From positions 1-64,000 of the forward strand of contig NZ_JADCKL010000015.1 of NCBI RefSeq assembly GCF_014982975.1: a stretch of 64,000 nt of DNA, read 5' to 3'. The position numbers and the translations under genes are program-made. The notes beneath the pieces were generated by a model. The model worked only from the letters and a program-made list of their open reading frames with translations. It was not told the DNA's origin and searched no databases. Shown in pieces: positions 10,680-64,000 of this stretch. This DNA is from Claveliimonas monacensis. Its GTDB lineage: Bacteria; Bacillota; Clostridia; Lachnospirales; Lachnospiraceae. How positions within the stretch are numbered: the first letter of the stretch is position 1; every line of letters begins with the position of its first letter.

Positions 10680-10997
10680 CACAAGAAACATATAGAGCAC
10701 CGTACCGGCTCCGATACTGAGAAGATTATTTCTCTTCCATACGTGGAGCCCTGCGGTTACCAGCACCGCCGCTGCTTCCGGTATCCCGTACGGGGCCGAG
10801 AGCACCGGCGTTGTTTTTAGGCAGTACACCACCAGCATGCCGATGACAGCCGGCGTCAGCACCCTCCCAAGGTACTGCACCACATCCGGTATCTCCTTCC
10901 CTTTCGGAAAAATAAGGAAAGGAACCACTCTGGTGGCAAAAGTGGTCAATGCCACAGCCAGTATGATGAGCAGCGACATTCCAACGCTTAACGGCAT
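10665..10997 (-). CDS. azlD: Branched-chain amino acid export subunit AzlD
   Basis: Small membrane protein of 110 residues with about four hydrophobic segments and the typical TFATRVVPFLIF and LGRVLTPAVIGML segments of AzlD. It is the small partner of AzlC, and together they export branched-chain amino acids and analogues. It overlaps the azlC stop by ten bases. CodY, the branched-chain amino acid sensor, is also encoded in this window, but I saw no CodY site here. Confidence 0.9.
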   Translation of the reverse strand: MPLSVGMSLLIILAVALTTFATRVVPFLIFPKGKEIPDVVQYLGRVLTPAVIGMLVVYCLKTTPVLSAPYGIPEAAAVLVTAGLHVWKRNNLLSIGAGTVLYMFLVQAVF

Positions 10998-49231: not shown

Positions 49232-50443
49232 TCACATGATCTGAACCAGATCCATCTTCGCAATCTCTTTTTCAATCCTGGACCGGTCTGTGATATGGTT
49301 ATAAACTTCCATCGTGACACTGATGTTGGCGTGTCCCATCACATACTGAACGACCTTCATGTCCAGATCTGTCTCTGCCATCCGTGTATAGGCTGTATGT
49401 CGGAGAATGTGGGCGGAAATGTGCGGCAGCTCTTCCGGCTTTCTCCTCTCCCGCTTTGCCCGCTCATTTTCTTCCTCGTTATACGCCTTCACAATATCCC
49501 GGAGAATAAAGTTCACGGTAGTCGGCATCATCGGACGCCCGCTCCTGCTCATGAATACAAAATTCGAAAGCCCTTCGATCTTCACATCCCTTGGGATTCC
49601 CATCTGAAAATTCAGCCGTCTCTGGGTCTCAAAGGCTTTTGCCACCATTTTGCTCATGGGTATCTCCCGGATCCCGGCTTCTGTCTTCGGCATGGTCACA
49701 TGAAAATCACACCCGTCTCCATAGTTCTTATAGATCAGCTGATGATTCACGTATACAGTCCGGGTCTTCAGATCCACGTCCTTCCAGGTGAGCCCGATCA
49801 GTTCTCCACAGCGAAGTCCGGTTCCGATCATCACCTGCAAAAGCGGCAGATAGATATGGAATACCTCGCTGTTCTTAACATAGTTCAACAGATTTTTCTG
49901 CTGATCAAAAGACAGGGCGGTGCGTTTCTTTTCCGGTTCTCCATAATCTCCCAGCGTTCTCTTGGCCGGATTCTTCCGGATGATATCGTCATCTACAGCC
50001 ACCTCAAAGCTCGGTAAGATCATATTATGGAGAAACTTGATGGTACTGTGGGAATATTTCTGTTTGCTCAGCCGGGAATAAAACAGGCGTACATGAGATG
50101 GTCTTACCTGTACCACTTTCATCTGTCCGAGTTCATTCCTCACAAGACTATTCCACATCCTTCTGTAATTGGCCTGTGTACTCTCTGCCAGCTTTCTGGT
50201 ATCCATGTGGATCTCAAACAGGTCATTGAGAGTCATGTTCTTGCATTGGGTATCGGTCATAATTCCTTCGCTCTGGTCTTTCTCAATCTCTTTTTCTTTT
50301 TTCCTGAGTTCAGCCAGATCCGGAGAATAAACGGCCAGGCGTCTGCCGGTCCGTTCATCTTTGTACCGGTACATATAGAGTCCATCCTTGCGCTGGGATT
50401 CCCCGGTCCTCAGATTTCTTCCTCTATTGTCTTTTCTTGCCAC
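49232..50443 (-). CDS. Tyrosine integrase, Tn916/ICE type
   Basis: Site-specific recombinase of 403 residues. An N-terminal arm-binding domain (DNRGRNLRTGESQRKDGLYMYRY, very close to the start of Tn916 Int), a SAM-like core-binding domain (about 70-160) and a catalytic domain with Arg (GTGLRCGELIGL), Lys strand, HILRHT (His-x-x-Arg), GHAN (His) and the Tyr nucleophile in MEVYNH. It starts at a GTG after GGA. It catalyses integration and excision of the element; the gene lies at the left end, reading towards the chromosome junction. Confidence 0.95.
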   Translation of the reverse strand: MARKDNRGRNLRTGESQRKDGLYMYRYKDERTGRRLAVYSPDLAELRKKEKEIEKDQSEGIMTDTQCKNMTLNDLFEIHMDTRKLAESTQANYRRMWNSLVRNELGQMKVVQVRPSHVRLFYSRLSKQKYSHSTIKFLHNMILPSFEVAVDDDIIRKNPAKRTLGDYGEPEKKRTALSFDQQKNLLNYVKNSEVFHIYLPLLQVMIGTGLRCGELIGLTWKDVDLKTRTVYVNHQLIYKNYGDGCDFHVTMPKTEAGIREIPMSKMVAKAFETQRRLNFQMGIPRDVKIEGLSNFVFMSRSGRPMMPTTVNFILRDIVKAYNEEENERAKRERRKPEELPHISAHILRHTAYTRMAETDLDMKVVQYVMGHANISVTMEVYNHITDRSRIEKEIAKMDLVQIM

Positions 50444-50461
50444 AAAACCATTCCTTTCTGG

Positions 50462-50603
50462 AACAGTTCAGCCATCATTCGTATGTAGTGCGGTTTTGCG
50501 AATGGCACATGCTGAACTGTTTCTTCTGTAATCTTCACACCTCCCTGTTGTGGGGAATGGTCTTGTCCTGTCTATGAAAAGTATAGCACAAAACCATCCC
50601 CAC
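50462..50603 (-). promoter_or_regulatory. Nested inverted repeats between xis-like gene and integrase
   Basis: AACAGTTCAGC (50462-50472) pairs perfectly with GCTGAACTGTT (50511-50521), enclosing ATTCG/CGAAT. A second imperfect repeat of 16-17 bases (50550-50566 with 50588-50603) flanks a TATACT box on the minus strand. Probably leader structures or operators controlling integrase expression. Confidence 0.5.
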
Positions 50604-50619
50604 GCACATCCGTGTTCCT

Positions 50620-50814
50620 CTATTCCGCTATTGCTTCCAGATATTTCTCCACCTTCTGTACGGAGTACAATACCCGGCGGCCGATGGTGATCCGGGCTCC
50701 CGCATCTTCCGCAATCTTCCTTGCAGTCATCTGTCCGCAGGAAAGCATAGCGGCCAGACCTTCAATATCCACTGCCAGACGGCAGCTGCTCTCTCTTTCT
50801 TTTGTCTGTCTCAT
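50620..50814 (-). CDS. Small excisionase-like DNA-binding protein
   Basis: 64-residue basic protein whose middle (IEGLAAMLSCGQMTARKIAEDAGARITIGRRVLYSVQKVEKYL) has the MerR-like winged-helix pattern of excisionases (helix, turn, helix, wing with GRRVLY). It starts one base after the stop of the DnaC-like gene with GGAGGAG upstream, and ends before int. By position and size it is the likely Xis that directs excision; it might also repress the operon. Confidence 0.75.
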   Translation of the reverse strand: MRQTKERESSCRLAVDIEGLAAMLSCGQMTARKIAEDAGARITIGRRVLYSVQKVEKYLEAIAE

Positions 50815-51669
50815 TTATCTCATCTCCTCCTTTATTCTTTTCTGCATCCGCCCCAGCTTTTCCTGAGCCGTACGTTTTCGAAAACTCTCCCCTTTAAACT
50901 GAACCGGCACGCACATCTCCAGCAACCGGTCATAAATCCTGGCATGCGCTGTATCCTGCGGATTCTTTAACTCCTGCAGTGTCAGATTGGTCGTCGCGAT
51001 CAGGGGCTTCCCACTCCGATATCTGCCATCGATCACCGCATAGATCTGTTCCAGTCCGTACTCTGTCCCCCGCTCCATTCCAAAATCATCCAGAATCAGC
51101 AACGGAACTCTGCACAGATTTTTTATGTATGTATTCTTCTCTGAAAAATTAGCAGACAGATCATTCAGCACTTCCGCAAAATTGTTCATACGTACTTCTA
51201 CCTCCTGTTCCAACAGTGCATTGGCAATACAGCCCGCCAGAAAACTTTTCCCGGTTCCCACTGCTCCCCAGAAGAGATAGCCTGTATTCTCCGCCTTCAT
51301 GGTTTCCCAGTCTTTCACATACAGCTTTGCAAGCACGGTATTTTCGGAAAGCCCTTTATCATTCTCAAATGTCCATTCCTGCATGGATTTATTCGAAAAA
51401 CAATGTTCCTTCAATTCTCTGACTACAGCTTCATGACGCTGTTGTTCCCGGTACTGTTCCTCCTCTTTTCTCTTTTGTCTCCGGCACTCACATTCACGCG
51501 GATGTTTTTTTATTCCCAAAACTCCGATTTTCTCCTGATCGAAATAAGCCTCCTTCGGTTCATGGCATTGTCCACAATACAGGAGCCCATCTTCTCCGAT
51601 ATAATCCTCCCCGGTTCTTTCTCCCGGCTGCCTCATGTTCTTTACTGTTTCTTCTACCACCTTGTTCAT
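50815..51669 (-). CDS. DnaC/IstB-like ATPase of the mobile element
   Basis: AAA+ protein of 284 residues, probably a helicase loader. An N-terminal zinc-like cluster (CGQCHEP, CECRRQ) is followed by Walker A GAVGTGKSFLAGCIANALL (about 137-155), Walker B LLILDDFGMERG and the sensor segment LIATTNLTLQELK. It overlaps the stop of the RepA-type gene by four bases (ATGA), so both are translated together. The pair suggests that the element replicates at some stage, for example after excision. Confidence 0.9.
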   Translation of the reverse strand: MNKVVEETVKNMRQPGERTGEDYIGEDGLLYCGQCHEPKEAYFDQEKIGVLGIKKHPRECECRRQKRKEEEQYREQQRHEAVVRELKEHCFSNKSMQEWTFENDKGLSENTVLAKLYVKDWETMKAENTGYLFWGAVGTGKSFLAGCIANALLEQEVEVRMNNFAEVLNDLSANFSEKNTYIKNLCRVPLLILDDFGMERGTEYGLEQIYAVIDGRYRSGKPLIATTNLTLQELKNPQDTAHARIYDRLLEMCVPVQFKGESFRKRTAQEKLGRMQKRIKEEMR

Positions 51670-52412
51670 AGACTTTCCTCCTCACTGCAGGTATAATCCG
51701 GAATGTTTTTTACCGGGGCTGACCGTTCTGCCCATCTTCTCAAGGTAACGGCATGATCAGCATATTGCTTTCCACTGGAACGCATATAACTGGACAATTC
51801 CTCGATCAGCCTGTCTAATTCCCGGATCTCCTGTTTCAATTCTCCATATTCTGTTTCGGAGAGAAACACATTGTGATATTTGCCATAGGCAGAGCGCGCT
51901 TCTCTCTCTTTATTTGTTTGGCTATATATCAAGTAACTATTATTTAAGTAATTAGGGGATACTTTTCTATCCATCACAGGGACAGGTTTCTTTCCCTCAT
52001 AAGTATCATTTTCTTTCCCTTTGAGGGACACTTTTCTTTCCTTCACAGGGAAACTTTTCTTTCCCTCTGCCGGGATTTTGATATACAGCAGATTCGGTTT
52101 TGAAAATCCCTGTTTTTTTCTCACCAGAAGTCCGGCTTCTTCCAGTTCATTCAATGCCTTTTTTACAGTCATGTGACTCTTTCTAAGATCGTCAGCCAGA
52201 TAAGCAATGGGATAAACCACAAAAATGTGGCCTTCCTCATCCTTCCACCCTGTCTTCCTGGAAAGACTCGCCCGATCCAGCAACAGAGCATACAGGACCT
52301 TGGCTGTCTGAGTCAGATCCATCCCCAGCAGAAACCGTGGGTAAGGAAGATACACCGGAATCTGGGTCTGATTCGTCATGTATATCATTTGATCTTTATT
52401 CTTCACATCCAT
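51666..52412 (-). CDS. Replication initiator, RepA/DnaD-like
   Basis: 248 residues. An N-terminal winged helix (about 15-110: VYLPYPRFLLGMDLTQTAKVLYALLLDRASLS, YLADDLRKSHMTVKKALNELEEAGLLVRKKQG) is the RepA_N pattern of Firmicute plasmids and integrative elements. A low-complexity linker has repeated basic PV(K/M)ERKVS units (three copies in about 120-165), and the tail is helical. The start at ATG 52412 overlaps the end of the upstream Cys-rich ORF; a frame to 52478 is open. It works with the DnaC-like ATPase. Confidence 0.82.
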   Translation of the reverse strand: MDVKNKDQMIYMTNQTQIPVYLPYPRFLLGMDLTQTAKVLYALLLDRASLSRKTGWKDEEGHIFVVYPIAYLADDLRKSHMTVKKALNELEEAGLLVRKKQGFSKPNLLYIKIPAEGKKSFPVKERKVSLKGKENDTYEGKKPVPVMDRKVSPNYLNNSYLIYSQTNKEREARSAYGKYHNVFLSETEYGELKQEIRELDRLIEELSSYMRSSGKQYADHAVTLRRWAERSAPVKNIPDYTCSEEESL

Positions 52413-52611
52413 CCTTTTGTTTCTGTCTGATTTTCCGCCGGCGGCTTCGCTTGGATTCATAACAGGGGCAACAGACAATCACAGTCCGGAAACTCTGCTT
52501 GCAGTCCCCGACACATTTCCTGCAGGTGTCATTGTGGGCGATGCGCCCTCTTTCATTGAGAAAAAAGGCCAATTCCTGTTTCCTTTTCTTGCTCATTCTC
52601 GGCACAGACAT
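52396..52611 (-). CDS. Small Cys-rich basic protein
   Basis: 71 residues with four cysteines in two pairs (DTCRKCVGDCKQS, VCCPCYES) and a very basic tail (KRSRRRKIRQKQKDG), so a zinc-binding nucleic-acid-binding protein is likely. GGAGGA lies directly before the first ATG; a GTG two codons in has better spacing. It overlaps the RepA-type gene by 17 bases. Small proteins of this kind are common between mob and rep genes in clostridial elements; the function is unknown to me. Confidence 0.6.
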   Translation of the reverse strand: MSVPRMSKKRKQELAFFLNERGRIAHNDTCRKCVGDCKQSFRTVIVCCPCYESKRSRRRKIRQKQKDGCEE

Positions 52612-52659
52612 TCCTCCTTCCTGCCATCCTGCCAGTACCTGGTACAGGACAGCGAAATA

Positions 52660-52793
52660 TGGTCGCGTTTCGGTATCATTTTTTGCATTTTTTGCCCTTT
52701 ACGGCAGGCTTTTTTGACTTCAAATATATTTACCTGGGGTTTATCCTGTCTGACGGCAGAAAACGCTGTTTGGTCGTGTTTCGGTATCATTTT
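52660..52793. repeat. 23-base direct repeat near the replication genes
   Basis: Two copies (52660-52682 and 52771-52793), 22 of 23 bases identical, start 111 bases apart, core GTTTCGGTATCATTTT. They lie between the mobC-like and rep genes and may be iterons of an origin. An 82-residue frame also spans them on the minus strand (52593-52841) and would contain two KMIPK repeats. Confidence 0.6.
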
Positions 52794-52815
52794 GGAACAA
52801 TTCATCTGGACTACT

Positions 52816-53202
52816 TTAACCGCCCCGATAATCCCGTTCAAAATCCCCTGCCATCTTCAACACCTCTTCCCTGAGTGCGAACAATTCCGCGATGCAGTGA
52901 CGGATTTCATCCTCCATAGCCAGAGAGCGTTCTCCGCCCGTATTGAAGTACCCTGCGATCTGATTCAGGTTCACACCGATCTTTCCATATGCCTCCACCA
53001 GACTTCGCAGTTCTTCCATATCGGCGACCACTTCTACTCGATGCACGATCTCCTTTTCCACCAAAAGTTTCCGCAGGCATTCGGATCTGGACACCCCCAG
53101 GATCTCCGCCTTCTTGTCCAGAAGTTCCAGCTCAATATCGGAAAGCCGGACTCCGACAAAACGCGGATGGTTCAGTTCCTGTTCCATTCTCCTTTTTCTC
53201 AT
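52816..53202 (-). CDS. MobC-like relaxosome accessory protein
   Basis: 128-residue DNA-binding protein. A ribbon-helix-helix start (RFVGVRLSDIELELLDKKAEILGVSRSECLRKLL) and the C-terminal family motif GVNLNQIAGYFNTGG are typical of MobC proteins that help a relaxase nick oriT. GGAG lies eight bases before the ATG. No relaxase follows it; the next genes are the Cys-rich ORF and rep. The hairpin cluster directly upstream (53224-53360) is the natural candidate for oriT. Confidence 0.85.
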   Translation of the reverse strand: MRKRRMEQELNHPRFVGVRLSDIELELLDKKAEILGVSRSECLRKLLVEKEIVHRVEVVADMEELRSLVEAYGKIGVNLNQIAGYFNTGGERSLAMEDEIRHCIAELFALREEVLKMAGDFERDYRGG

Positions 53203-53223
53203 GACTTCATCTCCTTTCTTTCA

Positions 53224-53360
53224 GTTACTTCAGTAACACCACAAAGGGGAGAACCGGCAGTCCTGCCGGAATCTACCTTTTGTGCTGCGTCCCACTTTCC
53301 AGTGGACGCCAATATCTGCCAAATCGGCAGATCATCGAGGGTATGGGGAATCGAAATCCC
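53224..53360. other. Candidate oriT: five consecutive inverted repeats
   Basis: Upstream of mobC lie GTTACT/AGTAAC (53224-53237), CCGGCAG/CTGCCGG (53254-53269), GTCCCACT/AGTGGAC (53289-53307), CTGCC/GGCAG (53316-53330) and GGGA/TCCC around TCGA (53346-53360). Position and hairpin density are typical of an origin of transfer. The nick site is not identified. Confidence 0.55.
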
Positions 53361-53387
53361 AAGCAAGAGCCCTACACAGGAAAACAC

Positions 53388-53700
53388 GATAGTGTATTAC
53401 GGGGTGGATCTTGCCCTATAATATCTACCCCCTCACTTAACGTAACCGGGAGCGGCTATTATACAGGGGCAAAAAGAAATAAATTTTATTTTTATCAACC
53501 AGATCCGCTCTTATCCTTTTTATTCTTTAAAGATCCCCTCACTTAACCCAATCGTCAGAGGAAGAAATACAAGGAGATTCGAAAATCTTTTTAATTTTCT
53601 GCTTCAAAAAATATTTCCTCTCACTTATAGAAAGGAAATTCAAGGATTATACAGTGTTTGGAGACAAAGTTTTTAATAAAGTGCATAAAAAAACATCCCG
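53388..53700. repeat. AT-rich gene-free stretch with CCTCACTTA repeats
   Basis: No convincing gene. CCCCTCACTTAAC occurs at 53429-53441 and 53535-53547, and a related CCTCTCACTTATAG at 53617-53630. The spacing is about 106 and 82 bases. They may be protein-binding sites or scars; base composition drops sharply here compared with the mob/rep module. Confidence 0.45.
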
Positions 53701-53717
53701 TCTTTTTTGACCGGATG
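53686..53717 (-). terminator. Terminator of the 117-residue acidic gene
   Basis: Minus strand CATCCGGTC pairs with GACGGGATG (one mismatch) around a six-A loop and is followed by seven Ts. Confidence 0.8.
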
Positions 53718-53774
53718 CCTGATTTTAATTCATAGATTTCTGTTATAAAAAATAGCCACCAGATTTTCCGGCAG

Positions 53775-54128
53775 CTATTCACATGTTAAATCATCACCAT
53801 ATTCTTTTTTTATCCTTGCACATAATCGATTCCAACTCTCTTCTTCCTCTTCTGGAGTTCTCTCTGGCAACACTACATCCTTTATATCATCCTCGATAGC
53901 TTTTACGTACTTATCTGATAATTCCGGATACTCATCCAGCAACCTTTCAAAGAGTTTATAAAGTCCATGCTCCGTACATTTAGCCAGGCATGAAGAAAAA
54001 AGTTCCATTGTCATTGGCTTTTGTTTATCGATTGCCGCCAGTTCATCATCGGAAAACTCGAATGTTAAGATAAGGAATTCTTCAAAATTATGTTTTTCTT
54101 TGTTGGATAGTTCATCATATTTTTTCAT
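53775..54128 (-). CDS. Small acidic hypothetical protein
   Basis: Unrecognised 117-residue soluble helical protein, about a quarter Asp or Glu (31 residues), with an EEEEE run near residue 97. No known motif. The AT-rich codon use matches the accessory island. GGGAG precedes the ATG and a clear terminator follows, so it is likely a real single gene. It is divergent from a small XRE-type regulator 107 bases away, an arrangement common for regulated accessory pairs. Confidence 0.6.
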   Translation of the reverse strand: MKKYDELSNKEKHNFEEFLILTFEFSDDELAAIDKQKPMTMELFSSCLAKCTEHGLYKLFERLLDEYPELSDKYVKAIEDDIKDVVLPERTPEEEEESWNRLCARIKKEYGDDLTCE

Positions 54129-54235
54129 CCCAGTTCTCCCTCCATATGCCTCTATTATAGATACATTTTTCAGTATAGTAAACCGTTATTTTTCCCATGA
54201 TAATGATTATATTACAAACTGGGAAGTGAGCAGAA

Positions 54236-54436
54236 ATGATAAGCTATTCTCCATTATGGGAGACCATGAAGAAACGGGATATCTCCACCTATACACTGAT
54301 TCATAAGTATGGTATCAATCCCCGGACGATCAATAATTTAAAACATAATAAGTCTATTACTATGTTTACACTGGAAAGGCTATGTGAGATTTTGAATTGT
54401 GAACCGAATGATATTATCAAGTTTGAGAAAGAATAA
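54236..54436 (+). CDS. Small XRE-family (Cro/CI-like) regulator
   Basis: 66-residue single-domain helix-turn-helix protein: MKKRDISTYTLIHKYGINPRTINNLKHNKSITMFTLERLCEILNCEPNDIIKFEKE is its core pattern (given in part by motif: YTLIHKYGI, TINNLKHN, LERLCEILNCEPNDII). GAAGTGAG lies upstream of the ATG. It is close in type to the decayed regulator at 60636-60850. It may control itself, the acidic gene or the nearby hsd operon. Confidence 0.88.
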   Translation: MISYSPLWETMKKRDISTYTLIHKYGINPRTINNLKHNKSITMFTLERLCEILNCEPNDIIKFEKE

Positions 54437-54471
54437 AAGCTACTGGAATTAATTATTGTCCAGTAGCTTTT
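54435..54471 (+). terminator. Terminator of the XRE gene, convergent with hsdM
   Basis: AAAAGCTACTGGA pairs perfectly with TCCAGTAGCTTTT; A/T runs on both sides allow action in both directions. Confidence 0.8.
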
Positions 54472-54541
54472 CATCATATCTAATATTTCAATCACAAAAC
54501 GTTGTGAATTTTTAACACATCGTATTATTCAATTTTTAAAT

Positions 54542-56032
54542 CTAATTTTTATTTAGCTTTTCTTGCAACAGGCTAAAACTCTCAAGAGCACTTTGCAAAT
54601 TTTCAATGATATCACTTGCAAGCTCATCAGGAGACGGAAGATTATCAAGATCTGCTAATGACTTATCTTTGATCCAGAAAATATCCAAGCTTGTCTTGTC
54701 CCGCTCCATAATTTCATCTACTGAGAATTTGCGAAAACGACCATCCGGATTATCTGCCGAATAGGTTTCTGTTCGTTCGTATCGGTTTTCAGGATTATAG
54801 CAACGAATAAAATCTTCAAGATCAGCGTCGCTCATTGGGTGCTGTTTGAGCGTGAAATGTATATTGGTACGGAAATCATAAATCCAAACATCTTTTGTCT
54901 GGCGATGAGCGCTGGCAGAACGCTTGTCAAAAAACAAAACATTTGCTTTTACTCCCGGTTTATAAAAAATACCGGTTGGCAAGCGAAGAATGGTATGTAA
55001 ATCGGTTGTTTCAAGCAGCTTTTTTCGAATTGTTTCACCTGCACCGCCCTCAAACAAGACATTATCTGGCACAACGACTGCTGCCTTTCCGGTAGCTTTG
55101 AGAATCGTGTTGATATGCTGTACGAAATTTAACTGCTTGTTTGAACTGGTTGTCCAGAAATCCTGCCGATTATAGACAAGGTCTTCGTCCTCTTGCTCGC
55201 CTCTCTCGTTGGTAAAAGTGATAGACGACTTTTTACCGAAAGGTGGGTTTGTCAGCACATAGTCTACACGGTATCCCGGGTCTGTCAGTAATGCATCTCC
55301 TAGCGTAACCGGAACATTTCCATAAATATCCCCGATATTGTGTAAATACAGGTTCATCAGTGCAGTTTTATAGGTGGCAGGGACAATTTCATTCCCATAA
55401 AAGGTCTCATTTTTCAAAAATTCTTTCTGCTCTCTATCTAGAGTAAAATTCTTCGGGTCTGCAAGAAAAGATTGCGATGCAAGGAAAAAACCGCCGCTAC
55501 CGCAGCAAGGATCAGCAATGGTTTTCATCGGCTCGGGACGCAGACAGCGCACCATTGCACGAATGAGCGGACGAGGAGTAAAGTACTGTCCCGCACCGCT
55601 TTTGATATCTTCTGCGTTCTTTTGTAACAAACCTTCGTAAATCTCTCCTTTTACATCGGAGGACATTGCCACCCATTTTTCTTTGTCTATCATCTGCACC
55701 ACACGGTACAAAATCGCCGCATTGTTGATTTTATTGACAGCCCCTTTAAAGATCTGCCCAAGAATACCGCTCTGATCTCCTAACTTTTCCAGTGTGGCTT
55801 TATATTGATTTTCAAGCTCCGCACCTTTTAACATATTCATATCCGCCCAACCATAACCAGTAGGAATACCGGTATCCCGCTTATAGGGCGGTTTTGCATA
55901 TTCGTCGGACATTTTCAAAAAGATGAGGTAGGTAAGCTGTTCGAGATAATCGCCGTAAGATACGCCGTCATCCCGAAGGGGATTGCACAGCCCCCATACT
56001 TTTGAAATAATAGTTGTAGTTTGTTCAGCCAC
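54542..56032 (-). CDS. hsdM: Type I restriction-modification methyltransferase subunit HsdM
   Basis: Adenine-N6 methyltransferase subunit of 496 residues. A helical N-terminal domain (about 1-140, YLEQLTYLIFLKMSDEY) precedes the catalytic domain, with GQYFTPRPLIRAMV, SAM motif ADPCCGSGGFFLAS (about 172-185) and catalytic motif NPPFGKK (about 262). Starts at GTG 56032 after GGGGG; only two bases separate it from the stop of the small ORF upstream. It is the last gene of the hsd operon, an unusual order (R-S-x-x-M). Confidence 0.95.
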   Translation of the reverse strand: MAEQTTTIISKVWGLCNPLRDDGVSYGDYLEQLTYLIFLKMSDEYAKPPYKRDTGIPTGYGWADMNMLKGAELENQYKATLEKLGDQSGILGQIFKGAVNKINNAAILYRVVQMIDKEKWVAMSSDVKGEIYEGLLQKNAEDIKSGAGQYFTPRPLIRAMVRCLRPEPMKTIADPCCGSGGFFLASQSFLADPKNFTLDREQKEFLKNETFYGNEIVPATYKTALMNLYLHNIGDIYGNVPVTLGDALLTDPGYRVDYVLTNPPFGKKSSITFTNERGEQEDEDLVYNRQDFWTTSSNKQLNFVQHINTILKATGKAAVVVPDNVLFEGGAGETIRKKLLETTDLHTILRLPTGIFYKPGVKANVLFFDKRSASAHRQTKDVWIYDFRTNIHFTLKQHPMSDADLEDFIRCYNPENRYERTETYSADNPDGRFRKFSVDEIMERDKTSLDIFWIKDKSLADLDNLPSPDELASDIIENLQSALESFSLLQEKLNKN

Positions 56033-56034
56033 AA

Positions 56035-56220
56035 TTATTTGCCCCCTTTTTCATCCGATATTTTTGTAAATCTATCAATACGAATTCCGGAGAAATTTTC
56101 TCCCCTCTTTTCAATGGTTATTCCAGACTGTTTAGGGGTTGTCTGAGGAGAAGATATCGGTTTTAATCCATTACCTTTTAAAATATCATTATTTGTTGAA
56201 TTCTTTGAATTTTCAGCCAT
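56035..56220 (-). CDS. 61-residue ORF coupled to hsdM
   Basis: Hydrophilic, probably disordered protein with Asn/Ser/Thr-rich N-terminus (MAENSKNSTNNDILKGNG) and basic centre (GITIEKRGENFSGIRIDRFTKIS). No family recognised. It begins one base after the stop of the membrane-protein gene and ends two bases before the hsdM start, so it is inside the hsd operon and probably translated. It might be a regulatory peptide or a partner of the membrane protein. Confidence 0.55.
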   Translation of the reverse strand: MAENSKNSTNNDILKGNGLKPISSPQTTPKQSGITIEKRGENFSGIRIDRFTKISDEKGGK

Positions 56221-56221
56221 A

Positions 56222-56770
56222 TTATATCCCTTTCTCTATGATAAGAACTAACGAATACAGAAGAAGCGCAATCACTACTTTGGTAACCGCAGAATCATAT
56301 TTTTTCTGTTTTTCAGCTATTATTTCACGCAAATTTGCAACAACTATGGTGTATTTATCAATCAACCATACCGCTGCAGCATCAGGATTCCATCGGTAGA
56401 TTTCTTCGTTGCGGATATCCATACTATCAAAAACAAGCAAAGCCTTGCTACGCATCAATAACAGCAATTGAATCACTGCCCATATAATGCAAACAGCACA
56501 TGCCACAGAACAGAGCAAAAGTAGAAGCAAAGAGAACAACTCTGAATTTGACTGTGTTCTGCAAATATCAGCAACATAAGTATAATTTACGCTGCCAAGG
56601 ATAACTAATAAAATGACGCCGCAGAATGCCAGTGTTACATTTACTTTCTCATAAATTTTATCGTAAGTATCAATCAACCGATGATAATCTTCAAAACACG
56701 CCTGTTGAACCAATTCCGCAGATGGGTATTGAACAGCCTGTTTTTCATCATCAATAACTTGTTCTTTCAA
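56222..56770 (-). CDS. Three-helix membrane protein inside the hsd operon
   Basis: 182 residues, not recognised. A cytosolic N-terminal helical region (about 1-40, KIYEKVNVT near its end) leads to two membrane helices (about 45-66 and 80-106), a soluble segment with MDIRNEEIYRWNPDAAAVWLIDKYTIVV, and a C-terminal membrane helix (about 160-180). TTG 56770 is favoured as start because GGGGGG at the end of hsdS is well spaced; a TTG at 56791 lacks a site. The outline recalls small membrane effectors of defence systems such as SLATT proteins, but I cannot show homology. Confidence 0.6.
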   Translation of the reverse strand: MKEQVIDDEKQAVQYPSAELVQQACFEDYHRLIDTYDKIYEKVNVTLAFCGVILLVILGSVNYTYVADICRTQSNSELFSLLLLLLCSVACAVCIIWAVIQLLLLMRSKALLVFDSMDIRNEEIYRWNPDAAAVWLIDKYTIVVANLREIIAEKQKKYDSAVTKVVIALLLYSLVLIIEKGI

Positions 56771-56774
56771 CCCT

Positions 56775-57896
56775 TTATATCCCCCCTTCAAACGCCTGTT
56801 TTAAAATACTCTGCCGCATCGCTTCGGCTTGTTGCAAGGCGGTATCAACTGTTTTTTCTATACTGTCGCAAATTGACATTTTAGCTTGAATATTTTCTAA
56901 TATTTTATTCTGCATCATTATGTCACATATTTTAATCTGTAGTTTTCTTGCTTTTTTAATACCAAAAGCCGGTTGACTTGTGGCCGTAGCACCTTTCATT
57001 AACTGTTGAGTTATATACGGAGAAGTAAATTGCCAAAATAAAAATTCTGGCAATATAAACTCTGAATTAGGTTGAATCAAAATCACATTTGCCGACAAAG
57101 TATAGTTTTGTGGTAATGGTAATTTGAAAGGCTTCCCAATTGTTCCAATTTTACCCATAACAAAGTCGCCTTTTTGAAGAGTGTATCTTTCAAAATGTTC
57201 TTTTGCTATCTGAGCAGAAACTTTTCGAGCAATATTAAAATTAATAATTTTTGCGTCATAATCTATATCTCCTATACCAATATAGGGGATTCCTCCTTCT
57301 ACTTCTGGTGGGGTTCTATGGCTCGGATGAGGATCTAACATAGTTGCAATCTTTTCCATATCGACTGCATTATTTAATGGTTCAAACGCCTCTTTCAGCA
57401 CTGCCTGACGGTAGACGGTAAGCTGCTGCTTGGTGGTTTTCAGTGTTTCAACCACCTTGTCCAGCTCGGGAAACAACTCCTCAATCCGTGCGACAATTCG
57501 TTCCTGCTCGGGCAAAGGGCGAACGATTAGTTCTTTTTTCTCAAGATGTTGATAATGTCTTGCGTATCCCTTATCCTCAATACGAAATGTAAGATATTGT
57601 GTTCCATAATAAAGATATTTAGGGAGTATTTCTTTCTTCGGTTGTAATACTTTTATACCATCTGCTCCTGGAGCAAAAGGAAATGTAATGAATTTTACAC
57701 ACTTCGTATGATCCCCAAATACGATAACAGGATAATCACATGCAAGCGCCTTAGTAAAATCATCTGTATATCCACCAATCAGCAAATGTCCTTGGTCTAT
57801 AATTGGCAATAAGCCTTTATCTAAATATTCTTTTTGCTTAATCTTTTTATCTGACGGAACACTTACTTTTTTGACTAATTCTTTATATATCGCCAT
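56775..57896 (-). CDS. hsdS: Type I restriction specificity subunit HsdS
   Basis: DNA-recognition subunit of 373 residues with two target-recognition domains (about 1-130 and 185-320), each followed by a conserved helix (LPEQERIVARIEELFPELDKVVETLKTTKQQL; ILENIQAKMSICDSIEKTVDTALQQAEAMRQSIL). The tails of the two helices share a QAVLKEAFE/QSILKQAFEGG repeat, as expected from the pseudo-symmetry of HsdS. The first domain is short compared with usual. It starts one base after the hsdR stop. Confidence 0.92.
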   Translation of the reverse strand: MAIYKELVKKVSVPSDKKIKQKEYLDKGLLPIIDQGHLLIGGYTDDFTKALACDYPVIVFGDHTKCVKFITFPFAPGADGIKVLQPKKEILPKYLYYGTQYLTFRIEDKGYARHYQHLEKKELIVRPLPEQERIVARIEELFPELDKVVETLKTTKQQLTVYRQAVLKEAFEPLNNAVDMEKIATMLDPHPSHRTPPEVEGGIPYIGIGDIDYDAKIINFNIARKVSAQIAKEHFERYTLQKGDFVMGKIGTIGKPFKLPLPQNYTLSANVILIQPNSEFILPEFLFWQFTSPYITQQLMKGATATSQPAFGIKKARKLQIKICDIMMQNKILENIQAKMSICDSIEKTVDTALQQAEAMRQSILKQAFEGGI

Positions 57897-57897
57897 T

Positions 57898-60636
57898 TTA
57901 CGCCACCAATTCTATATTCATTTCCTGTAAAATTTCCTCATACTGATCTCCAAACGCATCATAAAAGGCAAGCAGTCCGCCTTTTCTGTCAAAGGGCGTC
58001 AAATCTAAATCCTCTGGCAGAATACTTAAAGAGCTTGCAATGTGGTCTTTGATCAGCCGCAGCCATTCCATCTGCACCTCAGTAAAATGCACGGCGCCGG
58101 CGTTTTTCCGGAGCGTCCACTGCATAAAATTGTAATTTACCTTGTCTGCAAAGGGCGAAAGTTGATCTGTATAACCCATTTCAAAACGGATAATAGAAAT
58201 CAGGTCGGCAAGCTGAGCCATAACGCCTTTTTTCACTTTATTCGGCTTCTTAATGGCATAGCAATCCCACAGGCGTTCCACAGTAACGCCCTTTGACCTT
58301 AGCTTTTCATACAGCGCTTTCAGCTGTTCCACCGCCATTGCACGATTTGCGTACGGTTCGCTGTAAATAATCCGCAGGGCAAGGATTTCATCCCGGTTCT
58401 CCTCAATAAAGGTGCGGAATGTCTGTATCACACGGTCAGCATTTTCTTCCTTCTGCGTGTCATATCCGGCAAACAAAACCGAATCGAGATTTACATTGTC
58501 GATGATCTGGTCATGACTTCGGCGGACATTTTCAATAAAATCACGTGTATCGGGATTCATAAACGGAGCGACTGCCTGTACAATCAAATCCTTTTGCGCC
58601 TGTTTGAGTGCTTCGTCTGATGGTTTTTCCATTTTCGTATCTGTCTTTGCTTTTTCTGCAATCACATCTTCGTCAAAGGCATTGAGCAGATTTTCAGCAA
58701 CCTTTCCCGCACTTTCTCCGACTTTTTCTTCAAACTTCCTCCGCTCAGAAGTGTTCATCTGGTTGTTCAAACGAATTACACGGTTTGCAAGCGAAGTAAG
58801 TGTATCCTCGTCTTTAGCACCAAGCGCTACATTCATCATCAATTCTTTCATTGAAACAGATGGTTTGCGTTCCAGCGGACGAGTATCACATTTCTTTGAT
58901 TTGGTAACCCCCACTGCATCTATAATCACAAAATGATCTTTGTTTTCCATTGCGGAAGGTGTGACCTTTTGCAAATCGTCTTTTCCAAGCGTTCGGGTAC
59001 CACGTCCTTTCATCTGCTCAAAATAGTTCTTGCTACGCACATCACGCATAAAAATCAAGCATTCGATTGGTTTTACATCCGTACCGGTAGCAATCATATC
59101 TACGGTGACTGCAATACGGGGATTATAGTCGTTTCTGAAAGAGCTTAATACCGATTCTGGATTTTCTGCAGAATATGTAATTTTACGGCAGAAATCATTT
59201 CCTTCACCAAATTCGTCCCGTACAATCTGGACAATATCATCGGCGTGGCTGTCTGTCTTTGCAAAAATCAAAGTTTTTGGAACTTCTTTCCTCCTTGGGA
59301 ACAACGTTGTAAACAAGTTTTCTTTAAAAGTGCGTATCACAGTTCGGATCTGACTGGGATTGACAATATCTCTATCTAACTGAGGTGGCACATAGTCTAC
59401 GTCTTCATCCATCTGCATCCAGCGTTTTTTACGTGAAAGCCGATTGCGATACTCAATCAGCTGTTTCATCAGGCGTGCACCGTTTTTGGTGATTTCGGTT
59501 TCAATCAAGAAAATATCTTCCCCTACATTTACACCATCTACAATTGCTTGTTCGCGGGGGTATTCGCTGACAATGTTTTCATCAAAAAAAGCAAAAGTTC
59601 TCTTATCTGGTGTAGCAGTCAACCCAATAATAAATGCATCAAAATACGAAAGAACTTGACTCCACACATTGTAAATGGAACGATGACATTCATCTACAAT
59701 AATGCAGTCGAAAAATTCAGGGGGATATTTTTCGTTATAAACCACTTCTTTTGGCGCTCTGTTATTAGCGGTTGCATATTCCGCAAAGGATGTTTCTTCA
59801 GCAGATTCATCCAATTCTTCACCTTTGAGAATGGAATACATTCTCTGAATCGTGCTAATACAAATTTGAACATCCGAAGGAATATAAGAAGATTTTAACC
59901 GTCTCACCCCATAAAGCTGTGAAAAAGAACGAGGATCATCATTCGGAGTATATGCAAGAAATTCACGCTCAGCTTGTTCTCCAAGGCTTTTCGTATCCAC
60001 TAAAAATAAAATACGATTCATTTTACCATATTTCAATAAGCGATAGGCTGCTGTAATAGCCGTAAATGTTTTTCCAGCACCAGTTGCCATTTGAACAAGG
60101 GCTTTTTGACGGTTGTTGGAAAAAGAAATATCTAAATTCCGAATCGCATTAATTTGGCACTTTCGAAAGCCGGCTTCATCAAGTGGAGGAAAATTCTTCA
60201 TATTATTTCTGATCGTGCCCTCATTTGCAAGCAAACGCTCTAGGGTTTCTGGCCTGTGAAACGAAAATACTGTACGGGAACGGAACTTAATATCATTATA
60301 ATCAGTAAAACGAATTAGATTGTCCGTTGCTTCATAGGCAAAGCGAATTGAATATTCAATTTTAATCCATTTAAAAGTGCTATTTGCATAACGTGCGGAC
60401 TGTTCCTCTACAGTAGTGATATTTTCACCCGCCTCACTCTTTTTTGCTTCAATAACGCCAACAGGTATTCCATTCACAAAAAGCGCATAATCGACCGGCC
60501 CTGTATCCGTCGGAAACTCACGTACGGCGACACCTAGCGAAGCTATCGGATTCAATTTCTTCACGTCCTGTACTATCCAACCAGATTGTTCTAATTTTTT
60601 ATCAATCACTTTTCTCGCTTTTTGTTCAGGTTCCAT
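57898..60636 (-). CDS. hsdR: Type I restriction endonuclease subunit HsdR
   Basis: Motor and nuclease subunit of 912 residues. The N-terminal nuclease domain has DYALFVNGIPVGVIEAKKS (PD-ExK type, Asp and Glu-x-Lys). The SF2 helicase core has Walker A MATGAGKTFTAI (about 183-194), DEAD-type box VDECHRS, motif III LTATP, and C-terminal helicase motifs (TLIFAKTDSHADDI, MIATGTDVKPIECLIFMR). A helical C-terminus (about 620-912) assembles with HsdMS. Its ATG overlaps the stop of the decayed XRE gene (TAATG). Confidence 0.95.
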   Translation of the reverse strand: MEPEQKARKVIDKKLEQSGWIVQDVKKLNPIASLGVAVREFPTDTGPVDYALFVNGIPVGVIEAKKSEAGENITTVEEQSARYANSTFKWIKIEYSIRFAYEATDNLIRFTDYNDIKFRSRTVFSFHRPETLERLLANEGTIRNNMKNFPPLDEAGFRKCQINAIRNLDISFSNNRQKALVQMATGAGKTFTAITAAYRLLKYGKMNRILFLVDTKSLGEQAEREFLAYTPNDDPRSFSQLYGVRRLKSSYIPSDVQICISTIQRMYSILKGEELDESAEETSFAEYATANNRAPKEVVYNEKYPPEFFDCIIVDECHRSIYNVWSQVLSYFDAFIIGLTATPDKRTFAFFDENIVSEYPREQAIVDGVNVGEDIFLIETEITKNGARLMKQLIEYRNRLSRKKRWMQMDEDVDYVPPQLDRDIVNPSQIRTVIRTFKENLFTTLFPRRKEVPKTLIFAKTDSHADDIVQIVRDEFGEGNDFCRKITYSAENPESVLSSFRNDYNPRIAVTVDMIATGTDVKPIECLIFMRDVRSKNYFEQMKGRGTRTLGKDDLQKVTPSAMENKDHFVIIDAVGVTKSKKCDTRPLERKPSVSMKELMMNVALGAKDEDTLTSLANRVIRLNNQMNTSERRKFEEKVGESAGKVAENLLNAFDEDVIAEKAKTDTKMEKPSDEALKQAQKDLIVQAVAPFMNPDTRDFIENVRRSHDQIIDNVNLDSVLFAGYDTQKEENADRVIQTFRTFIEENRDEILALRIIYSEPYANRAMAVEQLKALYEKLRSKGVTVERLWDCYAIKKPNKVKKGVMAQLADLISIIRFEMGYTDQLSPFADKVNYNFMQWTLRKNAGAVHFTEVQMEWLRLIKDHIASSLSILPEDLDLTPFDRKGGLLAFYDAFGDQYEEILQEMNIELVA

Positions 60637-60850
60637 TACTTATTCACCTCATCATTTCCATCAAAATTAAGCTCTAAAATATCATCTACATTGCTTTGCA
60701 TATACGCTCTATGCTTTCCAAAGAAATATAGCTGCCTCTTTTCATTCGGGTAATGATATTTGCAAAAAAGCCTGTTTGTTCCACTAGCTGAGTATTGCTC
60801 ATATTCTATTCGATCATCATATGAAAAAGTTTTTTATAACTAACAGCCAT
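60636..60850 (-). pseudogene. Decayed XRE-family regulator upstream of hsdR
   Basis: A conceptual reading gives MAVSYKKLFHMMIE, a TAG stop, NMSNTQLVEQTGFFANIITRMKRGSYISLESIERICKAM-type text, then a frame change to NVDDILELNFDGNDEVNK and a stop that overlaps the hsdR start. This is a complete small Cro/CI-type regulator broken by one in-frame stop at codon 15 and a short deletion near codon 50. A normal GGAGG site and start remain. It was probably the controller of the hsd operon. Confidence 0.82.
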
Positions 60851-60877
60851 ATTATTTCCTCCGTATACAGAATAATA

Positions 60878-60895
60878 TATCACGAAAGAGTGATA
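60878..60895. promoter_or_regulatory. Inverted-repeat operator candidate before the hsd operon
   Basis: TATCAC, six bases, GTGATA: perfect arms, 28 bases upstream of the decayed regulator's start. A likely former binding site of that regulator. Confidence 0.5.
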
Positions 60896-60917
60896 AAACC
60901 AACTCAGAACAATAATA

Positions 60918-62027
60918 TCAGCCCTGCATTCTTATTCTTGAATGCAAACACATAACTTTCTGATATTTTATATCTTCATCAACTTTATCATACAAAAAAA
61001 TGGTCGGATCAATATTTTTCATAATACACTTTCCAATTTCAAAGGAAATCGGATTGGGAGCCGCAATAATTAACTGTATTATAACTTGTTCACCATGTAT
61101 CTCTCGAATCTCATTCAGCAATTCTCGAAATTTAATTTGAAATTCTACTATTTGTTCTTTACTCTGAATAAACATAAACCCAGGATTATCTGCCTTTATT
61201 GAATATGTCAAATTATCCGGTATTAACGCATGGTCGATATTTCCGCTTATTTCCACTAATAAATTTACTTCAGCTCTCTGATTTTCCTTTTCTGGTTTTA
61301 TTACTTGAAAATGACCAAACTCTCCATTTTTCCATTTCCAATCCTGAGTATCTCTAAAGAACTGATATGGTTCAGACTTAACTTTATTTCCCAGCATATA
61401 TCCTAGATAACATGCATATGGTATTTTTGACATTATAAAAATACAATAACTTTCTTGCTTTTGATCAGATATTATATGCAAATCTATTAGCCTTTCTATT
61501 TGCTTTTTAGCTGATGTAATATCTTCGACATTTGTTAAATCAATAACAATATCTGACTCCAAAGGGTAATATGGCATAATTGCTTCGGAAACTGCTTTAT
61601 CACTTATTATCGGAACCTGGTTTTGTATCTTACTAATCATCTTAATAATACGAACTCCATATTCCTGTCCCATTCCGGTAACTCTATATATTCGCTCTTC
61701 ATGTTCTCTTTTGTATTGTTGCAATAATTCCACTGGATATAATTCTACATATTGCGGGTCGTCAATCAAATTATTATGTTCTGAACAAGTTAACATTAAA
61801 TTTGAAATATCCGCAGCCAATCTTTCGGAATTCTCATTTCCACGTGGGCCTGTTTCTGTCCAACTAATAATATGTGCAATATTGGCTAAATTTCTCGGTT
61901 GCTTTGTCACTCCATCTTTATACAGATATTTATTACATCCTCGAAATTCGCAACGTCCACCAGCTTTTATCCACAGTTCACGTTTCACAGACTCTGGTAT
62001 CCTCGGTCTGTTCTTTTTTTCTCCCAT
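60918..62027 (-). CDS. HNH-SAVED nuclease effector (Cap5 type)
   Basis: CBASS effector of 369 residues. The N-terminal HNH domain (about 1-110) has CEFRGC, NIAHIISW (general-base His) and SNLMLTCSEHNNLID (metal-binding Asn and His). The C-terminal SAVED domain (about 150-369) has DIVIDLTNVEDITSAKKQIERL, KWKNGEFGHF-type strands and LLVEISGNIDHALIP, the alternating pattern that binds cyclic oligonucleotides. On binding its signal, Cap5 degrades double-stranded DNA. The start at ATG 62027 has GAGGAG seven bases upstream and overlaps the cap3 end by 50 bases; the frame is open to 62078. Confidence 0.85.
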   Translation of the reverse strand: MGEKKNRPRIPESVKRELWIKAGGRCEFRGCNKYLYKDGVTKQPRNLANIAHIISWTETGPRGNENSERLAADISNLMLTCSEHNNLIDDPQYVELYPVELLQQYKREHEERIYRVTGMGQEYGVRIIKMISKIQNQVPIISDKAVSEAIMPYYPLESDIVIDLTNVEDITSAKKQIERLIDLHIISDQKQESYCIFIMSKIPYACYLGYMLGNKVKSEPYQFFRDTQDWKWKNGEFGHFQVIKPEKENQRAEVNLLVEISGNIDHALIPDNLTYSIKADNPGFMFIQSKEQIVEFQIKFRELLNEIREIHGEQVIIQLIIAAPNPISFEIGKCIMKNIDPTIFLYDKVDEDIKYQKVMCLHSRIRMQG

Positions 62028-62550
62028 ACTCTTTCTCCTCGTATACCTTATAAATTCCTTCACTATGAGCACATTCAAATATTTCTATTATGTTCTTACT
62101 TTTAAAATCCCCCACCCAAACTCTTATTTCCTTCACTCCTGCAATAACAAAAAACACGTATTCGCAACCTGTTTTATCTACTTCTAATGTTTCATACCAG
62201 TCTTTCCAATCAATAGACGAAGGTTCAGGAATAATCTGCGGATGGGTATGCCACACTCCCATATAAAAACTCTTTTTTCGCATATTGTTCAGCAAAAAAA
62301 TTTTATGTCTCGGATCCCTCATAACGAAGAAAAAACGTCTTCGATTATCCAACATATATGGATGTGAAATGTATTCCAGAGTGATATTTTTTGTCCCGCA
62401 ATGTTGGTATCCTACAACATAACCCCCCGCCTCTGTTTTTTCATCTGAATCTTGTAACCACTTGTTTATTTCTTCAAAAACTGTTGATAAGATATCTACG
62501 ACTTTTCCATTTGGTAATTTCATTTTTCTACAGCTATTTGTTATTTTCAT
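61978..62550 (-). CDS. JAMM-family isopeptidase (Cap3-like)
   Basis: Metalloprotease of 190 residues. The JAMM motif is complete: Glu in TEAGGYVVG (about 40), HTHP, seven residues, then Ser-x-x-Asp (HTHPQIIPEPSSIDW, about 101-115). In type II CBASS, Cap3 removes the cyclase from targets to which Cap2 has attached it. It overlaps the end of the E1-like gene and the start of the HNH-SAVED gene, so the three are one operon. Start taken at ATG 62550; a GTG lies two codons earlier. Confidence 0.88.
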   Translation of the reverse strand: MKITNSCRKMKLPNGKVVDILSTVFEEINKWLQDSDEKTEAGGYVVGYQHCGTKNITLEYISHPYMLDNRRRFFFVMRDPRHKIFLLNNMRKKSFYMGVWHTHPQIIPEPSSIDWKDWYETLEVDKTGCEYVFFVIAGVKEIRVWVGDFKSKNIIEIFECAHSEGIYKVYEEKEYGRKKEQTEDTRVCET

Positions 62551-64000
62551 CTCCACAACACCCGCACTTTCTTTCTACAAACATGTCCTCCATATCCATC
62601 ACACTTATTGGTGTAATATCTATCAATTTATTTAAAGATTCGGGCATTTCAAAAACTTTTCTAATCACATCCAATAACACAGCAGTCGTTCTTAAAAGCA
62701 CTGCATTTCCATAGGCAACTCTCGTTCCTCCACATCCATTTCTGATTTTATACACCTCTACATCAGAATTCTTGTTTACCTTATTATTAATTAAACCGCC
62801 ATTTCTATCTGTAAATAGACATTGGAAACAGCCTTTCTTACTATAGTCTATTACTAAAACATGACTGTTTTCTCCGCCTGCTTCTAACCATGTATAAACA
62901 ACTTTTGCAGTACACTTTTTGTTTTTCAAAACTTTGTTCATTTCCAATTGAACATCACTTGAACCAACAGTAAAAAGAACTAAATCAACTTTTTTAATCT
63001 CTGAAATAAGCAAATTATTATCTATATTCTTATTAACTGCATTAATATGAATTTCCGGATGAATTGTCTCTAATTCGTATTTCAGCCCCACAGCTTTTGA
63101 ATGTCCAACCCAAAAATCGCATACTGTATGTCTCAACAAATTTTCATCTACTAACGATTCTTTATCATAAATTGTAATTTCTTTCACTCCAGCTTTCACA
63201 ATCTCTTTTGCAATATAACTGCCTAGTGATCCTGCTCCTACCAATAGCACTTTTTTATCTAATAAACTAGTTTCATTTCCAATCTGTTTACAGAGGTAAT
63301 AATAGTCGACTCTTCGACTTACTACAGGTAACACTTCAATAATTTCCTGCCTTATTTTATTTAGTAATGTGTCGTTTTTTGCACTTTTGAATCGTATAAT
63401 AGCAGTAAAATCAATATAATTTCCTGCGACCTCCATTTCAAATACTATTGCTACATTGTTAGTCTTTATTTTTTCTTTTCCAAGACTGATATAGCTATCA
63501 TGTGAAATACGATTAAATTTTTTTCCACATACAATCATCTGTATATTTTCTGCAGTCCACTTTTTATCACGTGTCGGTGGCAATATTCTCCGTTTATCTG
63601 TTATAGGAATATAGAAAGCTGGAAGTTCTGGCAAATGTTTCCACTTTTTCTTTCCGTTAATTTCTTCATCTACATCATTTAAAGATATTCCATTTGCAAC
63701 AAATCGAATCTTTCCATTATTATTCTTATATACATTTAATCTTTGAAATTTTCGTTCTTGCCCGAGATATACATTAAAAATCCCAGAACAATCAGCCACT
63801 TCATTCCAATAAAACAGAAACTCTTTTTGAAATTCTTCTTCCTTCTCTATATCAGATAAGGACAATAACTTTATGAGCTTTTCAATCAAACCTACTATCT
63901 TTTCTTCGAAACTTTGTAAAAAAATAACCGTACTATCATTTTCATCCAGGCACACATATCTATATTGATTCGCCAAGTTCTTATCTACCGGAATACTTGT
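62534..64000 (-). CDS. E1-like ubiquitin-activating protein (Cap2-like), N-terminus cut by window edge
   Basis: At least 488 residues, open to the right edge; a TTG at 63976 has no ribosome-binding site, so the true start is probably beyond 64,000. The visible N-terminal 240 residues (EEFQKEFLFYWNE, LPAFYIPITDKRRILPP) resemble the linker of Cap2. The adenylation domain follows with KKVLLVGAGSLGSYIAKEIVKAG (nucleotide site), IYDKESLVDENLLRH, and the probable thioester Cys in NGCGGTRVAYGN; zinc pairs CFQC and CGCC flank it. Cap2 normally also has an E2 part at its N-terminus, expected just outside the window. It ligates a CD-NTase to targets. Confidence 0.82.
   Translation of the reverse strand, partial: TSIPVDKNLANQYRYVCLDENDSTVIFLQSFEEKIVGLIEKLIKLLSLSDIEKEEEFQKEFLFYWNEVADCSGIFNVYLGQERKFQRLNVYKNNNGKIRFVANGISLNDVDEEINGKKKWKHLPELPAFYIPITDKRRILPPTRDKKWTAENIQMIVCGKKFNRISHDSYISLGKEKIKTNNVAIVFEMEVAGNYIDFTAIIRFKSAKNDTLLNKIRQEIIEVLPVVSRRVDYYYLCKQIGNETSLLDKKVLLVGAGSLGSYIAKEIVKAGVKEITIYDKESLVDENLLRHTVCDFWVGHSKAVGLKYELETIHPEIHINAVNKNIDNNLLISEIKKVDLVLFTVGSSDVQLEMNKVLKNKKCTAKVVYTWLEAGGENSHVLVIDYSKKGCFQCLFTDRNGGLINNKVNKNSDVEVYKIRNGCGGTRVAYGNAVLLRTTAVLLDVIRKVFEMPESLNKLIDITPISVMDMEDMFVERKCGCCGDENNK

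Follow-up and report, generated by a model that had tools for sequence, protein, structure and literature searches.

A predicted type II CBASS operon of Claveliimonas monacensis headed by an AbiL-like ATPase gene pair in a putative integrative element

Three overlapping genes at the right end of a stretch of Claveliimonas monacensis DNA raise the question of which defence system they belong to and what else is encoded with them. The stretch, referred to here as the window, comprises 64,000 nucleotides (nt), C7:1-64000 of the 67,471-base contig C7 (NZ_JADCKL010000015.1), and the contig remainder to the right of its edge was also analysed. An earlier note on the window had read the three genes as a type II cyclic-oligonucleotide-based antiphage signalling system (CBASS) cut by the edge. 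The locus can be described with high confidence as a complete, conventional four-gene type II CBASS, consisting of a cGAS/DncV-like nucleotidyltransferase (CD-NTase), Cap2, Cap3 and an HNH-SAVED Cap5, preceded by an ATPase gene pair, in a putative integrative element. The CBASS by itself is ordinary; the upstream ATPase pair is new and is the least expected part of the locus.

The four CBASS genes

Six genes form one row, all on the minus strand, in the 5' to 3' order Li (C7:67127-65844, an AbiLi-like ATPase of 427 amino acids, aa), Lii (C7:65875-65222, a small AbiLii-like protein of 217 aa), the cyclase (C7:64194-65216, 340 aa, 194 to 1,216 bases past the window edge), the E1-E2 fusion Cap2 (C7:62534-64207, 557 aa, with the 3' part of the gene at 62534..64000 inside the window and 69 codons beyond it), the Cap3 JAMM isopeptidase (61978..62556, 192 aa) and the Cap5-type HNH-SAVED effector (60918..62027, 369 aa). 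The earlier claim of three overlapping genes for an E1-like enzyme, a JAMM protein and an HNH-SAVED nuclease on this strand is confirmed by coordinates and profiles. The genes are closely packed: Li and Lii overlap by 32 nt, Lii and the cyclase are 5 nt apart, and the cyclase and Cap2, Cap2 and Cap3, and Cap3 and Cap5 overlap by 14, 23 and 50 nt, respectively. Of the related loci (numbered L below, with genomes numbered G), L055 has the whole six-gene row in unchanged order, and L056 has the first four, its cap2 similarity ending at residue 460, 108 nt short of the contig end. For this CBASS, the sequence shows which genes are present, how they are ordered and spaced, and that their motifs are intact.

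The cyclase had been predicted to lie to the right of position 64,000, and the test set beforehand, a search past the edge, found a CD-NTase there. Its best PADLOC model is Cyclase (E = 7.3e-94, residues 1-331), it aligns over nearly its whole length with the solved nucleotidyltransferases 8ysn, 8ysd and 8ysc (phmmer E = 2e-29 to 1e-28), and it also matches 7ljo_A (phmmer E = 7.6e-14), a CD-NTase of the CdnG kind. The GS..DxD motif and third aspartate (G60, S61, D74, D76 and D132) are each present in 27 of 27 aligned sequences; this count and those given below for Cap2 and Cap3 leave out a duplicate of L055 (L046), a near-copy of L078 (L077), a broken locus (L079) and two cut loci (L066 and L067), and for Cap2 also proteins shorter than 480 aa, e.g. 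those of L056 and L065. The protein ends in HGFG, with glycine last, and the L055 cyclase ends in NFG. Where an operon encodes complete Cap2 and Cap3 proteins, the cyclase usually ends in glycine or alanine, and Cap2 needs the C-terminal glycine for thioester formation (PMC10097602).

Cap2 matches the PADLOC E1-E2 model almost from end to end (E = 5.1e-206, residues 4-555 of 557 to model positions 2-550 of 551), the part visible in the window alone matches it with E = 4.3e-186, and the Pfam ThiF domain is found with E = 1.6e-22 to 2.1e-22. Three cysteines (C86, C492 and C548) are invariant in 25 of 25 aligned sequences, and C460, C463 and C551 are found in 24 of 25. From its N-terminal place and its conservation, Cys86, in the sequence RYVCL (codon 63950..63952, minus strand), is the putative catalytic E2 cysteine, and Cys492 (codon 62732..62734, minus strand) is the putative catalytic E1 cysteine. 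The earlier note had seen no obvious E2 cysteine motif in the visible part and had left a choice between a classical Cap2 and a variant architecture. The first statement does not hold, as the Cys86 codon (read 63952-63950) is within the window, and the choice falls on its first branch: by its sequence Cap2 is classical, an E2 part and an E1 part both being present, and a variant lacking E2 is rejected on the full-length profile match and the invariant Cys86.

Cap3 matches PADLOC JAB (E = 1.2e-41), Pfam Prok-JAB (E = 2.3e-8) and the solved chain 9ild_A (E = 1e-11), and its JAMM motif is complete, as had been noted before (E42, H103, H105, S113 and D116, each in 24 of 24 aligned sequences). The effector matches the PADLOC endonuclease model (E = 1.8e-85 to 2.1e-85), SAVED_HNH (E = 4.6e-81) and Pfam SAVED (E about 1e-28), and among solved chains it aligns at near full length with 8ysq_A (phmmer E = 2.9e-51, residues 4-361) and over most of its length with 7rwm_A and 7rwk_A (phmmer E = 5e-27), the Cap5 proteins of Lactococcus and Asticcacaulis, respectively (PMC8568899). 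It is a Cap5-type HNH-SAVED protein, the SAVED domain being assigned from sequence comparison. Its ATG start (369 aa) has GGAGAAAGAGT ahead; an alternative TTG at 62078 gives 386 aa. Effectors vary among close cyclases, with HNH, phosphoesterase and PADLOC 2TM types, and in Clostridium magnum (L057 13502-15190), whose CBASS has a cyclase of this group, a calcineurin-like phosphoesterase is fused to SAVED.

Profile scores far above chance and intact motifs support the earlier identification of a type II CBASS that combines Cap2 and Cap3 with an HNH-SAVED effector. An E1-JAB module of another kind could be imagined from the NCBIfam 6A-MBL cap2_3 model, which has E1 and JAB parts and matches weakly (E = 1.7e-18, 66.5 bits versus a cut-off of 320), but a CD-NTase and a SAVED effector are both there and contiguous with these genes, which refutes that module and makes it a most improbable identity. 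Three observations do weigh against a conventional, co-transcribed CBASS. The matches to the cGAS and Cap3 equivalog models of NCBIfam do not reach the curated cut-offs (for Cap3, CDNTaseCGASCap3 with E = 1.2e-17), and therefore the system is divergent. Sequence alignment of Cap2 with the solved Cap2 chains 7tsx, 7tsq and 7to3 is limited to the E1 part. Finally, a single transcript is deduced from gene spacing alone, because the promoter scan found 28 sites versus 33.9 expected in shuffles.

Activity, nucleotide product and trigger may be proposed from characterised relatives. On infection the cyclase would produce a cyclic oligonucleotide; Cap2 would attach the C-terminal glycine of the cyclase to target proteins by way of its E1 and E2 cysteines and thereby prime the cyclase, and Cap3 would cleave the conjugates. 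Binding of the nucleotide to the SAVED domain would switch on the HNH nuclease, so that DNA would be degraded and the infection aborted. The locus resembles the CdnG/Cap5 type II CBASS of Asticcacaulis and Lactococcus lactis (PMC8568899) in its effector, which matches AsCap5 (7RWK) and LlCap5 (7RWM), and in its DncV-like cyclase partner, but differs in the ATPase pair ahead of the cyclase. With this effector match and the match to 7ljo_A, clade G, whose cyclases make 3',2'-cGAMP, is a candidate assignment for the cyclase. It shares the set of cyclase, Cap2, Cap3 and nuclease-SAVED protein with the type II CBASS of Bacillus cereus (PMC11153139), an operon of four genes, in contrast to which two extra genes precede the cyclase here. 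Cysteines C91 and C403 of the B. cereus Cap2 were mutated in that study (PMC11153139); C91, which would be the E2 cysteine, is close to C86 here.

The ATPase pair ahead of the cyclase

Li matches PADLOC AbiLi (E = 6.9e-65) and Pfam AAA_21 (E = 2.8e-20), and its Walker A motif reads GSNNAGKT. The match to AriA is far weaker (E = 1.5e-22). For Lii, the only family match is a patchy one to PADLOC AbiLii (E = 9.7e-8): nothing was found above cut-off in Pfam, and nothing in NCBIfam, PHROGs or, by profile, solved chains. A search for solved relatives of Li, Lii and the Lii profile returned none, with two matches at E = 0.16 and 0.88 only. Comparison of Lii with an RloB/AbiLii profile by hhalign gave a probability of 0.9% (E = 0.063), both alignments being shallow. 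The conserved core of Lii (E26, E29, E30, D81 and NPCTMQII..HW, in 10 of 10 aligned sequences) is reminiscent of RloB-type motifs; a TOPRIM fold is conjectural for it. A distant Lii relative at L090 matches phrog_16255, of unknown function.

In being a two-gene combination of an ATPase and a small partner, the pair is like AbiL of Lactococcus lactis (PMC10440598, PMC12409363) and RloA/RloB, from both of which it differs in that the small protein has no Pfam RloB or TOPRIM match and in that the pair heads a CBASS row. Li belongs to the same broad ATPase family as AriA of the phage anti-restriction-induced system (PARIS; PMC9122126, PMC12409363), but the partner here has no match to AriB (DUF4435); PARIS is rejected as the identity of the pair on this ground and on the much better score of AbiLi over AriA. 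Most likely, Li and Lii are a separate abortive-infection pair co-transcribed with the CBASS. At three loci (the window, L055 and L056) the last bases of Lii overlap the GGAGG ribosome-binding site of the cyclase. A Lii remnant had also been considered before the L054 cyclase from a short GGAGGA match, and was dropped, as the match is no more than a ribosome-binding site.

Close Li-Lii pairs frequently stand alone, and some pairs are found beside other genes. At L041 (4984-12970), Li-Lii directly precedes HsdR, HsdM and a further open reading frame (ORF), like restriction-linked RloAB; the ORF calls give an overlap of 4 nt with HsdR. At L090 (8104-11902), a contig of the viral collection, an OLD-family gene follows 12 nt after Li-Lii, with recombinase-like ORFs around, and at L039 (6958-9024) a 688-aa protein is encoded 41 nt after Lii for which neither Pfam nor PADLOC gave a match at E = 0.01, possibly an unknown defence gene. 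Genome G028 has a Lii with an internal deletion beside an intact Li (L038 210-651), and another genome from that genus has a partial Lii match (G589:C1:273-575), as if the small partner had been lost while the ATPase was kept.

Recurrence of the pair before related cyclases

The close set for comparison consists of 14 cyclase loci with at least 56% identity, namely 12 of at least 14 listed matches together with the window and L081; L065 (42%) is counted as distant, and L067, a fragment (49%), is outside both groups; it is preceded by an SduA-like ORF and lacks an upstream ATPase pair. An ATPase gene and a small partner gene stand directly upstream of the cyclase, on the same strand and at gaps of 5 to 62 nt, in eight of the 14 (the window, L054, L055, L056, L060, L061, L064 and L066, the last with a cyclase cut at residue 132 near the contig end). 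The small partners of L060, L061, L064 and L066 are 93-100% identical, which reduces the count to 5 of 11 when near-copies are collapsed. Three kinds of pair can be distinguished: AbiL-like (window, L055, L056), an AAA_21/AAA_15 ATPase with a partner that matches DUF4276 below cut-off (L054), and AbiLi with RloB (E = 5.9e-35; the L060 group). The ATPases of all three match AbiLi models and form one broad family. Elsewhere in the close set the slot holds AlbA_2 at 35 nt (L059), SduA at 226 nt (L063) or a small PDC-S07-like gene at 51 nt (L081), and L057, L058 and L062 have no ORF of at least 90 aa within 300 nt upstream of the cyclase.

A pair was found within 100 nt downstream of the effector in none of nine collapsed loci with readable sequence. 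Distant cyclase loci were assessed against the three known pairs and through Pfam searches of six selected upstream neighbours; among them the upstream count is zero of 14 (collapsed from 16), or zero of 13 without L052, which is unreadable near the contig end. The Fisher p values are 0.038 for upstream versus downstream and 0.011 versus the 13 distant loci, both post hoc, calculated after the pattern was seen. The slot of distant loci holds Eco47II (L051), Eco57I/ResIII (L088), HsdR (L089) or EcoRII with Vsr at 106 nt (L083). Cyclase relatives were not found in the viral_contigs and phages collections; 128 records of the plasmid collection match the cyclase, all with less than 60% identity, and the four of these that were inspected, by gene map and in three cases also by annotation, have no ATPase pair before it.

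One explanation of this recurrence is that the pair and CBASS make a composite system, the pair being a backup layer that frees its toxic partner if a phage blocks CBASS, as PARIS senses an anti-restriction protein. The upstream counts, as opposed to those downstream and in distant loci, favour it, as does the sharing of one slot by three kinds of pair, and there is a precedent in bacteriophage exclusion (BREX) operons, which recruit OLD-ABC/TOPRIM modules as backup effectors (PMC12839542). Those modules are ATPase-nuclease pairs within the operon of another system; unlike here, the recruiting system is BREX, and the main text of that paper does not mention CBASS (PMC12839542). A description of an AbiL-CBASS operon was not found in passages of PMC10440598, PMC12839542, PMC10568477, PMC11305592, PMC10855318 and PMC12447246, all from the open-licence literature.

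Several considerations make the composite explanation doubtful, if still worth entertaining. The sample is small, drawn from at least 14 listed matches, with p values that are post hoc, and it shows linkage, which does not imply joint function. Li-Lii is alone in many genomes, and elsewhere it stands before a type I restriction operon (L041), before an OLD gene (L090) and before an unknown gene (L039); Li relatives are found in 89 of 299 genomes of the family at E = 1e-10 or better, versus 5 of 299 for the cyclase (at E = 1e-20, the cyclase is found in 5 of 392 genomes of the order and 8 of 391 of the class, in samples that overlap and include the window's own genome). The same slot also holds AlbA_2 and SduA and, in the distant loci, the restriction genes listed above, and the three ATPase kinds are not unrelated. 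The cyclase tree unites the window with L054, L055 and L056 (support 92/88, not starred) and places L060, L061 and L064 in a second group (100/100); loci of other slot kinds fall between the two. The starred branches of that tree force one label change only, in a test with two differently labelled rows, and there may have been a single gain of the pair with losses, with which the tree remains compatible. The fullest form of the composite explanation, a recurrent composite immune operon in which an interchangeable ATPase and small toxic partner of at least three kinds sit at the head of CBASS and provide a second abortive layer when a phage disables the cyclic-nucleotide pathway (an anti-anti-CBASS guard), is a little less likely again.

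The mobile element and the origin of the arrangement

The likelier of the two explanations, and one that is favoured with some reserve, is cargo stacking: mobile elements gather defence genes one behind another, head to tail and all on the same strand, and the pair would have come to lie before CBASS by accumulation and useful read-through. The window supplies a suitable setting, with genes for a Tn916-type tyrosine integrase (49232..50443; Pfam Phage_integrase E = 2e-30, Integrase_DNA E = 2.6e-17), a RepA_N initiator (51666-52478; Pfam RepA_N E = 3.8e-14) and a NikA/MobC-like mobilisation protein (52816-53202; Pfam NikA-like E = 3.3e-10), all on the minus strand. The integrase putatively marks the left end of a cargo-carrying integrative element, which would span window positions 49232-64000 and continue to the contig end at C7 67471, its right end being beyond the contig. 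A mobile context of two genes is common to L054, L055, L060, L064 and L066, the last three being near-copies, and the L055 cassette is flanked by a 205-nt direct duplication (92.7%) of the end of a mobile-element gene (4213-4417 and 10916-11118), which suggests that the six-gene cassette was inserted with partial duplication. Stacking also fits the assortment of restriction genes that occupy this slot in distant loci.

Phylogeny points the same way. The window cyclase joins that of L056 (82% identity, support 100/98), but in the Li tree, calculated without the L054 ATPase, the window Li joins that of G028 (85%, 100/99) and not L055 or CBASS-linked L056 (73%), and no cyclase match was found in the G028 genome. 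Therefore, the pair and CBASS were separately exchanged, or one of them was lost, at least once. The CBASS label needs three changes in the Li tree, two of them forced by starred branches, with the remote L060 kind counted. Stacking accounts for stand-alone pairs, for pairs that head other systems, for the restriction genes in the slot and for the mobile flanks. Taken alone, it leaves unexplained why, in the close group, the slot is occupied more often by ATPase pairs, of three kinds, than by anything else, and why the ribosome-binding site of the cyclase overlaps the end of Lii.

The putative element contains the integrase, a DnaC/IstB-like ATPase, RepA_N, the mobilisation gene, type I restriction, CBASS and the AbiL-like pair. 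The restriction genes, on the minus strand and not part of the CBASS, encode HsdR (57898..60636; Pfam ResIII, EcoEI_R_C and HSDR_N), 281 nt downstream of the effector, HsdS (56775..57896; Pfam Methylase_S E = 1.7e-10) and an HsdM-like N6 methylase (ORF 54542..56032). The HsdM-like and DnaC/IstB-like families, like those of hsp20-like and DnaJ-like ORFs beside the cargo and the Walker A motif of Li, were read directly from the translations. The 281 nt that separate HsdR from the stop codon of the effector (60637-60917) contain short frames that give the impression of a regulator remnant. The contig end was considered as a repeated insertion element, for which there is no support, the last 213 bases occurring once in the genome.

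If the pair is tied to CBASS, the idea of a guard, familiar from PARIS and put forward for BREX, would be extended to cyclic-nucleotide immunity, and whether phage anti-CBASS proteins trigger an AbiL-like pair would become a directly testable question. If it is not, the locus would illustrate clearly how mobile elements stack defence cargo head to tail. The locus adds a well-bounded clostridial example of type II CBASS, in which the doubt about Cap2 is settled by the sequence past the window edge.

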